Below the pieces are notes generated by a model. That model was not told the origin of the DNA. It worked only from the letters and a program-made list of their open reading frames with translations, and searched no databases. A stretch of 64,000 nt of DNA from Massilibacillus massiliensis (GTDB taxonomy: Bacteria > Bacillota > Negativicutes > FLKF01), in assembly GCF_900086705.1 (NCBI RefSeq), contig NZ_LT575483.1, positions 63,166 to 127,165 of the forward strand, given 5' to 3'. This document shows, piece by piece, positions 45,101 through 48,564 of the stretch. The position numbers were made by a program, and so were the translations under genes. Every line of letters begins with the position of its first letter. Position 1 is the stretch's first letter.

Positions 45101-45955
45101 ATGAAAAAGTTAATTGTCAATGCCGATGATTTTGGTTTGCACACTTGTGTTAATCAAGCAATTATAAAAGGGCATATGAACGGATGCATAACAAGCGCTT
45201 CCATTATGCCGACAGGACCAGCTTTCGAAGATGCTATACATTTGGCTTTAAAAACTCCCAGTTTGGGAGTCGGCGTACATTTAACGTTGGTATCAGAAAA
45301 ACCATTACTTTCTTGTCAGAAAGTGAATTCCTTAGTAAGCTCAAATGGATATTTTCAAAAAGACCATATGGCTTTTATTCAAAAATTTCTAAGAAAAAAT
45401 ATAGATTTAAAAGAAGTTTATTTGGAACTTTCTGCACAAATAGAGGCCGTTTACCAAACGGGTGTAAAAATAACTCATATTGATAGTCATCAGCATCTAC
45501 ATATATTGCCAGGAATCATTAATATCGTTATTGATTTAGCGAAACAATATGAAATAAAGGCGATAAGAATTCCTGCTGAACCATATTTTTTTACTGGTGG
45601 ATACAATGCAGATATTAAACGATTCATTAGTAAATGTGGTTTAACCTTTTTATCTAATTTAGCGAGAAATCTAGTAAGAAAAAATCATTTGATGTCCACA
45701 CAGAATTTTTTTGGTATGTTAGCTGGCGGAAATATGTTTCCAGTTTATTTTTCTAATATAATTGATACACTACCTGAGGGGAGTTCAGAAATTATGATTC
45801 ATCCAGGAATTAATACCAACGTTTTACAAGAACATTTTGGATGGAATTATCATTGGGAAAGTGAGTTAAATGCAGTTATGGAAAAAAATATTTTAGAGAA
45901 AATTTCAAATCGTCATATCCAACTATGTTCATTCGGAGCGTTAGTGAATGAATAA
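45101..45955 (+). CDS. ChbG/YdjC family carbohydrate deacetylase (NaxD/HpnK-like)
   Basis: Family members remove N-acetyl groups from sugars or glycolipids. The 284-residue protein has the metal-binding NADDFGLH (Asn7 to His14), the HIDSHQHLH motif (His126, His130, His132, His134) and a C-terminal SEIMIHPGIN. In Francisella the related NaxD deacetylates undecaprenyl-linked GalNAc for lipid A. Here the gene is followed by a flippase-like membrane protein and an ArnT-like glycosyltransferase, so a glycolipid substrate is likely by inference. ATG 45101 is preferred to TTG 45098. Confidence 0.88.
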   Translation: MKKLIVNADDFGLHTCVNQAIIKGHMNGCITSASIMPTGPAFEDAIHLALKTPSLGVGVHLTLVSEKPLLSCQKVNSLVSSNGYFQKDHMAFIQKFLRKNIDLKEVYLELSAQIEAVYQTGVKITHIDSHQHLHILPGIINIVIDLAKQYEIKAIRIPAEPYFFTGGYNADIKRFISKCGLTFLSNLARNLVRKNHLMSTQNFFGMLAGGNMFPVYFSNIIDTLPEGSSEIMIHPGINTNVLQEHFGWNYHWESELNAVMEKNILEKISNRHIQLCSFGALVNE

Positions 45956-46934
45956 ATTTTATAAAAGATTTTTATTTCTGATCGTATTATTAGCTGTAAT
46001 TTCATGTGGTGTTATTTATTTTACAATAGATATAAATACATTTAATAATTTAACTTCTTTCCAGCCATGGTCTATCATATTGGCAATTATTCTAGTTTCT
46101 ATTGGTTTGATTCTAGATGGAACCAGATTAATGCACTTAGTTCGAATATCAAATGAACATATTACTTTACAACAAGCAGTACAAGTAGTTTTCGGTAATT
46201 ATTTCTTAGCTTTATTAACACCTGGCGCAACTGGTGGTGCGGTTGCACAATTAATTTTTTTAAGACATGCTGGAATTCCTACGGGAAAGGCAACTGTCTT
46301 TGTTATTGTTAGAACTTTAGTTTCTATATTATTTTTATTACTTTGTCTCCCGATTATTTTTTATTATGATATTCATCTACTACCATGGATCTCTGCAGAA
46401 TCCTTAATGTATGCTTCTGCTTGCATTGTTATTTTAATTCTTTTGGCAATTTGGGCTTTCAAAACAAACTTTCCCGATTATGTTGTAATAAAAATATCAA
46501 AAAAATTTCCTCGTAATCGACGACGTATGATTTTTTCCTTTTATCACGACATAAAGGGCGCTGTCTTGCTATTATCTTCTGCACCATTTAGTATGTTTCG
46601 CGTTTTTATTGAATCAGGGCTAAGTCTAATTGCAATATATAGTGTTGTTCCCATTTTATTTTTAGGTATGGGCGCTGAAGCAAATTGGCATATTATTATG
46701 GGTAGAATGATTTTTCTTAATATATTATTATATTTTGCACCAACTCCTGGAGGCTCAGGAATTGCCGAAGGTGGATTTGTTCTATTATTTAGCGATTTTC
46801 TCCCATCTGGAACTGTTGGAATCGTTGCTGTTGCCTGGAGAATCATCGTAGAATATTTACCTTTTTCAATAGGTTTTTATTACACTGTAAAGGTATTTGG
46901 ACGGGATTTTTTAAATAAACAGATGAATAAGTAG
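45948..46934 (+). CDS. Lysylphosphatidylglycerol synthase TM-like / flippase-like protein (UPF0104)
   Basis: The 328-residue protein has about eight membrane helices and the UPF0104/AglD/YbhN core: NYFLALLTPGATGGAVAQ near residue 90 and APTPGGSGIAEGG near 265. Members accompany glycosyltransferases and may move lipid-linked sugars; no lysyl-transfer domain is present. It overlaps the deacetylase by eight bases, so the two proteins are probably made together. Confidence 0.87.
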   Translation: MNKFYKRFLFLIVLLAVISCGVIYFTIDINTFNNLTSFQPWSIILAIILVSIGLILDGTRLMHLVRISNEHITLQQAVQVVFGNYFLALLTPGATGGAVAQLIFLRHAGIPTGKATVFVIVRTLVSILFLLLCLPIIFYYDIHLLPWISAESLMYASACIVILILLAIWAFKTNFPDYVVIKISKKFPRNRRRMIFSFYHDIKGAVLLLSSAPFSMFRVFIESGLSLIAIYSVVPILFLGMGAEANWHIIMGRMIFLNILLYFAPTPGGSGIAEGGFVLLFSDFLPSGTVGIVAVAWRIIVEYLPFSIGFYYTVKVFGRDFLNKQMNK

Positions 46935-46965
46935 CTGTTACAAAATGAATATTTGGAGGTATAGA

Positions 46966-48522
46966 ATGTATCGTAGAAATTATGTAGCAATTTGTATTAC
47001 AGCTGCAATTTCCATTCTTATAATATTTTTCAATCTAGGGGGGTTTTCTTTACTAGATCCAGATGAGCCAGTCTATGCTGAAACGCCAAAAGAAATGATT
47101 CTTTATAACAATTTTATTTCTCCTAAAATTTATGGAGAGTATTGGTATGATAAACCTCCTATGTATTATTGGCTGGTATCACTTTCTTATAAAATTTTTG
47201 GCATCAATGATTTTGCTGCTAGATTTCCTTCTGCCTTATTCGCCGTTGTGGGCATAGGTGTTATTTTTTATTTTGCACAAAAACTATTTAATAAAAATGT
47301 GGGTATGATCAGTGCCTTGGTTTTAGTGACAAGTATTGAGTACTTTTATTTAGGCAAGGCAGCAGTAACGGATATAACATTAAATTTATTTTTGACTTGT
47401 TCTTTGCTGAGTTTTATCAGTAAAAAATATTATAGTTATTATATTTTCGCAGGATTGGCTGTGTTAACAAAAGGTCCCATAGGCTTATTTTTTCCGAGTG
47501 TTATTGTATTGATTTATTTGATTATAACAAACAATTTAAAAGAATTACGGCAGATGAAAATATTGCCTGGTGTTATTATTTTTTCTATCATTGCATTACC
47601 TTGGTATATCATCATGTATAACTTTCATGGCAATGTATTTATAGATACTTTTCTCGGATTTCATAATGTAACACGTTTCACTACACCGGAACATCCTTCT
47701 GGTACCCTTTGGTACTTTTATATTCCCGTCCTAATTATTGGATTTTTTCCTTGGATCGCAATATTAATGCAATCTGTCTATAATTCTCTAATAAACTCTA
47801 GACAGAAATTTAATGAATTAGCATTTTTAAATACATGGATATTCGTAGTGTTTTTATTTTTTTCATTTGCTCAGACAAAATTGGTATCATATATATTACC
47901 CATGTATCCACCAATGGCAATCATTGTAGGTTGGCATATTGACCAGTTATGTAAGAAACATTATAAGAATCGCAGCGCATTCTCTTGGATAGTTTTATCG
48001 TGCCTGTTTATCGTTCTGATACTTGTAGGTTCTGTATCTGTGATAGAAGAAATGCCTGAAACTAAGCAGGGCATACTATATTTAAATATACTGCTCATCT
48101 TAATGATGGCCTGCATATTGATTTCTACATGGCAAAAAAAATTAGAAAGAGTTTTATGGGTAAATATAGTTGGGATGTGCATCTTTTCTCTCATATTAGT
48201 AAAGATGATTATTCCAGCTATTGCACCCCAATTTTCTTCTTTTAATATTGCTCAACAATTTAAACAAGATTATGACAATCATAGTCCAATTTATGTTTCA
48301 AAATTTTTGCGTCCCGGATTTTCTTTTTATAGTAACTACTATGGGAATGAATTAATTTTTTCGGATCAGTCTACACCAAATCTAGAGCCAATTCTTCAAC
48401 AAAACTCGAAGGTCTATTTTATTCTTAGAGATATCGATTATATACGAATTCCAGAAAATATTAGAGATCAATTAACTATTATAAAAACAGCTGATAATAA
48501 AATGATATTGGTGACAAAATAA
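46966..48522 (+). CDS. ArnT-like glycosyltransferase family 39 (lipid A aminosugar transferase candidate)
   Basis: GT39/PMT-type enzymes move a sugar from undecaprenyl phosphate to an acceptor; ArnT and FlmK add amino-sugars to lipid A. The 518-residue protein has about eleven membrane helices and the N-terminal catalytic acidic motif LDPDEPVYAETPKEM (Asp31, Asp33, Glu34), then YWYDKPPMYYWLVSLSYKIF. A soluble tail follows from about residue 430. ATG 46966 fits GGAGGT better than ATG 46945. It ends the cassette with a strong terminator. Confidence 0.88.
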   Translation: MYRRNYVAICITAAISILIIFFNLGGFSLLDPDEPVYAETPKEMILYNNFISPKIYGEYWYDKPPMYYWLVSLSYKIFGINDFAARFPSALFAVVGIGVIFYFAQKLFNKNVGMISALVLVTSIEYFYLGKAAVTDITLNLFLTCSLLSFISKKYYSYYIFAGLAVLTKGPIGLFFPSVIVLIYLIITNNLKELRQMKILPGVIIFSIIALPWYIIMYNFHGNVFIDTFLGFHNVTRFTTPEHPSGTLWYFYIPVLIIGFFPWIAILMQSVYNSLINSRQKFNELAFLNTWIFVVFLFFSFAQTKLVSYILPMYPPMAIIVGWHIDQLCKKHYKNRSAFSWIVLSCLFIVLILVGSVSVIEEMPETKQGILYLNILLILMMACILISTWQKKLERVLWVNIVGMCIFSLILVKMIIPAIAPQFSSFNIAQQFKQDYDNHSPIYVSKFLRPGFSFYSNYYGNELIFSDQSTPNLEPILQQNSKVYFILRDIDYIRIPENIRDQLTIIKTADNKMILVTK

Positions 48523-48526
48523 TACG

Positions 48527-48564
48527 AAAACACTATTTACATTGCATAAATAGTGTTTTTTTTT
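48527..48564 (+). terminator. Terminator after the GT39 gene
   Basis: AAAACACTATTTA (48527-48539) pairs perfectly with TAAATAGTGTTTT (48547-48559), loop of seven, with a T run. It separates the envelope cassette from the cobalamin operon. Confidence 0.9.

Follow-up and report, generated by a model that had tools for sequence, protein, structure and literature searches.

A deacetylase, MprF-type and GT39 gene cassette in Massilibacillus massiliensis and its probable place in a lipid-linked aminosugar pathway of Negativicutes

A run of three genes in Massilibacillus massiliensis, encoding a YdjC-family deacetylase (HpnK1), an MprF-type flippase-like membrane protein (FLIP) and an ArnT-like GT39 transferase (GT39a), probably represents the deacetylation and transfer half, that is the back half, of an undecaprenyl phosphate (Und-P) aminosugar pathway whose GT2 glycosyltransferase is encoded elsewhere, with lipid A phosphate as the likeliest acceptor. 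The run lies in a stretch of 64,000 nucleotides of contig NZ_LT575483.1, here called the window; statements on the genome beyond the window are based on family searches. The original prediction had placed the deacetylase and the GT39 in one lipid-linked aminosugar pathway, and this part of it is strengthened by their co-inheritance with a GT2, by their clustering with a GT2 in a second locus of the same genome and in relatives, and by the conservation of their catalytic residues.

We infer a sequence of reactions in which a distant GtrB/ArnC-type GT2 would make Und-P-N-acetylhexosamine, carrying either GlcNAc or, through an epimerase, GalNAc. The YdjC deacetylase would strip the acetyl group at the inner face to give a free amine, after which the lipid may be flipped outwards by the MprF-type protein. 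In the last step the ArnT-like GT39 would pass the positively charged aminosugar on to an acceptor in the envelope, most probably a phosphate of lipid A, and the negative charge of the surface would fall.

The logic of such a pathway is known. The gene set resembles that of Francisella (FlmF2-NaxD-FlmK) in combining a GT2 of the GtrB/ArnC type, a deacetylase for N-acetylhexosamine and a GT39 like ArnT, and all three parts lie close together in the second locus of the genome. It differs from the Francisella set in that the window cassette lacks a GT2, that an MprF-type protein separates its deacetylase from its GT39, that a GalE-like epimerase is present in relatives, and that the second locus further contains a PAP2 protein and a two-component system. 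In the papers searched we found no precedent for the distributed layout, for the MprF-type partner and the epimerase, or for the spread across the class. Nor did these papers describe how outer-membrane Firmicutes, a little-studied group, adjust the charge of their envelope; for this group the analysis provides a class-wide gene set and names the missing synthase.

Layout of the cassette and its recurrence in relatives

The three genes form a tight run on one strand (Table 1), with an overlap of 8 bases between the HpnK1 and FLIP genes and a gap of 10 bases between those for FLIP and GT39a. The ATG start of HpnK1 lies 18 bases past the folE2 stop, and the cassette and the upstream rpe-queC-folE2 genes may be part of one shared transcript. 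The terminator, a strong one, was overlooked by a simple terminator scan because its stem is AT-rich, and was found by folding. Coordinates, family assignments and the folded stem with its T run confirm that the three genes are adjacent and end at one terminator, as first proposed.

Table 1. Cassette genes and terminator, in positions of the window
Feature	Description	Position	Strand	Basis
HpnK1	YdjC/PF04794 metal-dependent deacetylase, 284 aa	45101..45955	+	Pfam, NCBIfam, model, residues
FLIP	UPF0104/PF03706 MprF-type membrane protein, 328 aa	45948..46934	+	Pfam, NCBIfam, model fold
GT39a	ArnT-like GT39 transferase, 525 aa	46945..48522	+	Pfam, NCBIfam, structure match, residues
Terminator	Intrinsic; 14-pair stem, 7-base loop, T run	48526..48560	+	Folding: MFE -12.3 kcal/mol, z -3.83

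The arrangement is far beyond chance, because it recurs across many families of Negativicutes, the class of the host. Of 58 non-redundant loci, 20 have the order HpnK-FLIP-epimerase-GT39(-GT39), more than any other, and four, including that of the window, have HpnK-FLIP-GT39 without an epimerase. Short overlaps between the genes, many of them of 4 bases, are seen at many loci, and the position downstream of queC-folE2, often upstream of cbiD, is common to many families. Cassettes of this type, downstream of folE2, contained no GT2 in any of the relatives examined.

Some relatives have complete sets. One locus (L047) carries HpnK-GT2-FLIP-epimerase-GT39-GT39-RR-HK-PAP2 in a single run, and a similar one in Anaerospora (L046) includes DedA (VTT) and PAP2 genes (L046:10894-11598, L046:12963-13541). 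Both are families of polyprenyl-phosphate handling, and their presence inside the cluster fits such handling. Such complete loci give the strongest indication of a connection between the components. In Omnitrophota the order is GT39-GT2-HpnK.

In several relatives a protein of about 655 aa is encoded between folE2 and the cassette (L107:5172-7154, L114:5843-7816 and others); in L107 it contains an NPPY motif like that of N6-adenine methyltransferases.

A synthase outside the window and co-inheritance across the class

All PF00535 matches of the genome lie outside the window, so the prediction that the synthase of the lipid-linked sugar is absent from it was right, and the search that it recommended in the rest of the genome located a candidate. 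At a distance of 3.7 Mb from the window, genes for a deacetylase, a GT2, a GalE-like epimerase, two GT39s, a sensor kinase, a response regulator and a PAP2 protein stand in a row. The deacetylase of this second set is also of the YdjC family and is 43% identical to HpnK1, and its GT39 pair, which brings the GT39s of the genome to three, is 45% and 29% identical to GT39a. This GT2 belongs to the GtrB/ArnC/PgfS type: its best structural match is the solved GtrB-type protein sll0501 (E 2e-81), followed by ArnC structures, and it matches both PgfS and ArnC models, with PgfS as the top NCBIfam match. An orphan GT2 paralogue lies at 469 kb in a gene setting common to relatives, where it stands alone or beside genes unrelated to the pathway, with no positional link to a partner. 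The polyprenyl-phosphate GT2 that characterizes NaxD/FlmF2/FlmK pathways is encoded outside the cassette, in the second locus and by the orphan gene, and is co-inherited class-wide. Co-inheritance and the loci of the second type together point to this distant GT2 as the putative partner of the window cassette. Just upstream of the second locus lies a transposase-like gene of 412 aa (L003:7516-8754).

We searched 250 genomes of the class for the deacetylase, GT2, GT39, FLIP and LpxC, with presence thresholds of 1e-30 (deacetylase), 1e-100 (GT2) and 1e-60 (GT39) that were set post hoc, the GT2 limit after inspection of the list. The deacetylase was present in 206 genomes, a close GT2 in 202, GT39 in 198, FLIP in 188 and LpxC in 242. 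Odds ratios, calculated for genomes that are related to one another and from presence lists transcribed by hand, were 47 for deacetylase and GT2 (32 by genus), 11.5 for deacetylase and GT39 (32 by genus) and 7 for GT39 and GT2; none of the three is present in 23 genomes from 14 genera. Across the class, retention and loss of deacetylase, GT2 and GT39 go hand in hand. The suggested check of co-occurrence across Negativicutes therefore bore out the link for these three genes and not for FLIP.

GT39 transferases and the acceptor

GT39a belongs to GT39 by PF13231/PF02366, and ArnT is both its best NCBIfam relative (180.3 bits) and its best solved structure (5EZM, 4e-40). Its residues D40/E41, K70, D143 and K176, conserved in the GT39a set, align with D55/E56, K85, D158 and K203 of ArnT, which have been described previously (PMC7801869). 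GT39a thus has the catalytic and lipid-phosphate residues of the ArnT-like GT39 in a NaxD/FlmF2/FlmK pathway, and is predicted to transfer an aminosugar carried on undecaprenyl phosphate to an acceptor in the envelope. The ArnC-ArnD-ArnEF-ArnT system, which places L-Ara4N on lipid A, follows the same course of polyprenyl-linked sugar, deacylation, flipping and GT39 transfer; it differs in having an ArnD-type deacetylase in place of YdjC and an EmrE-like flippase in place of an MprF-type one. L-Ara4N itself is disfavoured as the sugar: the best ArnB match in the genome scores 276 bits against a cut-off of 631, and GT39a is far under the cut-off of 567 of the ArnT equivalog NF009784.

Lipid A is made here, as the presence of LpxC shows; GT39 acceptors vary widely, and lipid A is a putative one for GT39a. 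In Francisella, FlmK uses C55-P-galactosamine as donor to place galactosamine on the 1-phosphate of lipid A (PMC6581854). Galactosamine is abundant in the lipid A of Selenomonas ATCC 33150 (Kumada 1997, as reported in PMC13339959), which agrees with lipid A as the acceptor, and the gene set offers a possible genetic basis for that report; the comparison is indirect because in Selenomonadaceae-like genomes whose FLIP stands alone, HpnK-GT2 lies elsewhere, in several loci with DUF6056 beside it. For Veillonella and other Negativicutes, no hexosamine mass data were found in the literature on lipid A.

A less likely reading, though one that deserves serious consideration, is that the same lipid-linked aminosugar chemistry serves another acceptor, namely a surface polysaccharide, a glycoprotein or some other glycan. 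The name of PgfS, the top NCBIfam match of the GT2, derives from the glycosylation of streptococcal proteins; several acceptors are conceivable where a genome encodes three GT39s; and in some families DUF6056 is found at the position expected for GT39. Against this, ArnT is the nearest GT39 relative by family and by structure, LPS is kept in the class, and galactosamine is reported for Selenomonas lipid A in PMC13339959. We favour lipid A phosphate as the probable acceptor.

Some further features of the transferases were observed. GT39c, the second GT39 of the clusters (L003:14155-15813 and 18 others), has V for the aspartate aligned with ArnT D55, reading DPVE and not DPDE in 19 of 19 sequences, and may use another residue or acceptor. 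DUF6056, a family of unknown function, adjoins HpnK-GT2 pairs in the place of GT39 in L149:7801-9477, L150:9849-11531, L151:5308-6978, L152:5311-6981 and L157:9916-13476, and also in L037, L165 and L059; one possibility is that it performs the same step as an unrelated transferase. In L149 the gene immediately before HpnK-GT2-DUF6056 (L149:3854-5869) encodes a membrane protein of the sulfatase family (PF00884, which includes EptA and LtaS).

The membrane protein, the deacetylase and the sugar

FLIP is the sole PF03706 protein in the genome (E 2.1e-33, 116.5 bits against a gathering score of 33.4) and also matches the flippase-like model TIGR00374. Its structural model (pLDDT 86.7) has six MprF structures as its only significant fold matches in the PDB, with TM-scores of 0.56-0.63; the link to MprF comes from this fold comparison, a profile search against PDB sequences having given no match. 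We expected FLIP to be a co-inherited partner, and this was not borne out in the 250 class genomes, where its odds ratio was 2.0 (p 0.06) with the deacetylase and 1.0 with GT2. FLIP is still present in 17 of the 23 genomes without deacetylase, GT2 and GT39. In six loci (L115, L116, L117, L120, L125 and L185) the MprF-type gene stands alone, mostly right after folE2, with the rest of the cassette absent there, and several of these genomes, for example those of L115, L117 and L185, are without the whole pathway. The tie of FLIP to the deacetylase and GT39 is positional only. Of the membrane carrier role originally suggested for it, the MprF fold and the place between deacetylase and GT39 speak in favour, and the lack of co-inheritance with them speaks against.

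Triads of synthase, deacetylase and MprF-like flippase yield aminosugar lipids in C. difficile (HexSDF) and P. aeruginosa (GpgSDF) (PMC10128005, PMC12713373), where a glycosyltransferase, a deacetylase and an MprF-like protein jointly display the lipid. By analogy, the aminosugar could stay on a membrane glycolipid or phospholipid that FLIP exposes at the outer face, the GT39 being a separate neighbour, and the MprF fold of FLIP as well as HpnK-FLIP pairs without a nearby GT39 (L137, L140, L141) agree with this. We consider it improbable. Those systems use deacetylases and synthases of different families, do not include a GT39, and leave their product on a membrane lipid; FLIP scores 60.5 bits against a cut-off of 320 for the GlcN-PG flippase GpgF (NF053789); the partner glycosyltransferase is a polyprenyl-type GT2 and not a GT4 or MGDG synthase; and deacetylase and GT39 are co-inherited.

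For the Und-P aminosugar pathway, FLIP is a possible flippase, this being the weakest step, and NaxD pathways, in which flipping has no assigned protein so far, would gain a candidate; for Acinetobacter, the enzymes that transport and attach GalN are stated not to have been identified (PMC9431647). HexF and GpgF are likewise dispensable for making their lipids (PMC10128005, PMC12713373). If the second locus needs a PF03706-type flippase, it must borrow the FLIP of the window, because no other PF03706 protein is encoded in the genome. FLIP may serve other lipids too. We tentatively suggest, as a speculation that we would not expect to hold in full, that in Negativicutes a stand-alone MprF-type (UPF0104) protein flips NaxD-type Und-P-aminosugars together with other polyprenyl-sugar lipids, and that DUF6056 replaces GT39 as the final transferase in Selenomonadaceae-like genomes. 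Such a wider role of FLIP would account for its retention where the pathway has been lost.

HpnK1 is a YdjC protein (PF04794, E 6.8e-72) whose AlphaFold model (pLDDT 96.7) matches the structures of 2I5I/EF3048, CmCBDA and ChbG. Residues D9, D10, H60, H126, D128, H130, H134 and H234 show almost complete conservation among 89 relatives; HpnK1 thus has the YdjC fold with intact metal and catalytic residues that marks the deacetylase of NaxD/FlmF2/FlmK pathways, and its predicted substrate is a lipid-linked N-acetylhexosamine. Action on soluble chitooligosaccharides, beside unrelated neighbours, would accord with the shared family and the fold match to ChbG, but is very improbable and was dropped on score and gene context: HpnK1 reaches 160.0 bits against the cut-off of 227 of the ChbG model NF002559, chitobiose uptake genes are absent from the vicinity of the cassette, and the deacetylase is strongly co-inherited with GT2 and GT39. 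A hopanoid side-chain pathway, in which HpnK/HpnL homologues deacetylate and handle glucosaminyl hopanoids, was first suggested by HpnK being the best NCBIfam match (226.2 bits) and recalls hopanoid clusters, where a YdjC deacetylase adjoins the PF03706 protein HpnL, but is already largely refuted and was dropped, as this score and that of the second-locus deacetylase (198.3 bits) fall under the cut-off of 232.6 of TIGR03473 whereas true Geobacteraceae HpnK adjoining HpnJ reach 342-347 bits, HpnK1 lies in a clade separate from hopanoid HpnK in the tree, and the genome has no squalene-hopene cyclase.

Because the hopanoid, ChbG and L-Ara4N readings are disfavoured, the sugar would most simply be GlcN or GalN. 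The solved structures nearest to the GalE-like epimerase do not single out a substrate, but the occurrence of this enzyme in most cassettes, though not in that of the window, would favour GalNAc/GalN.
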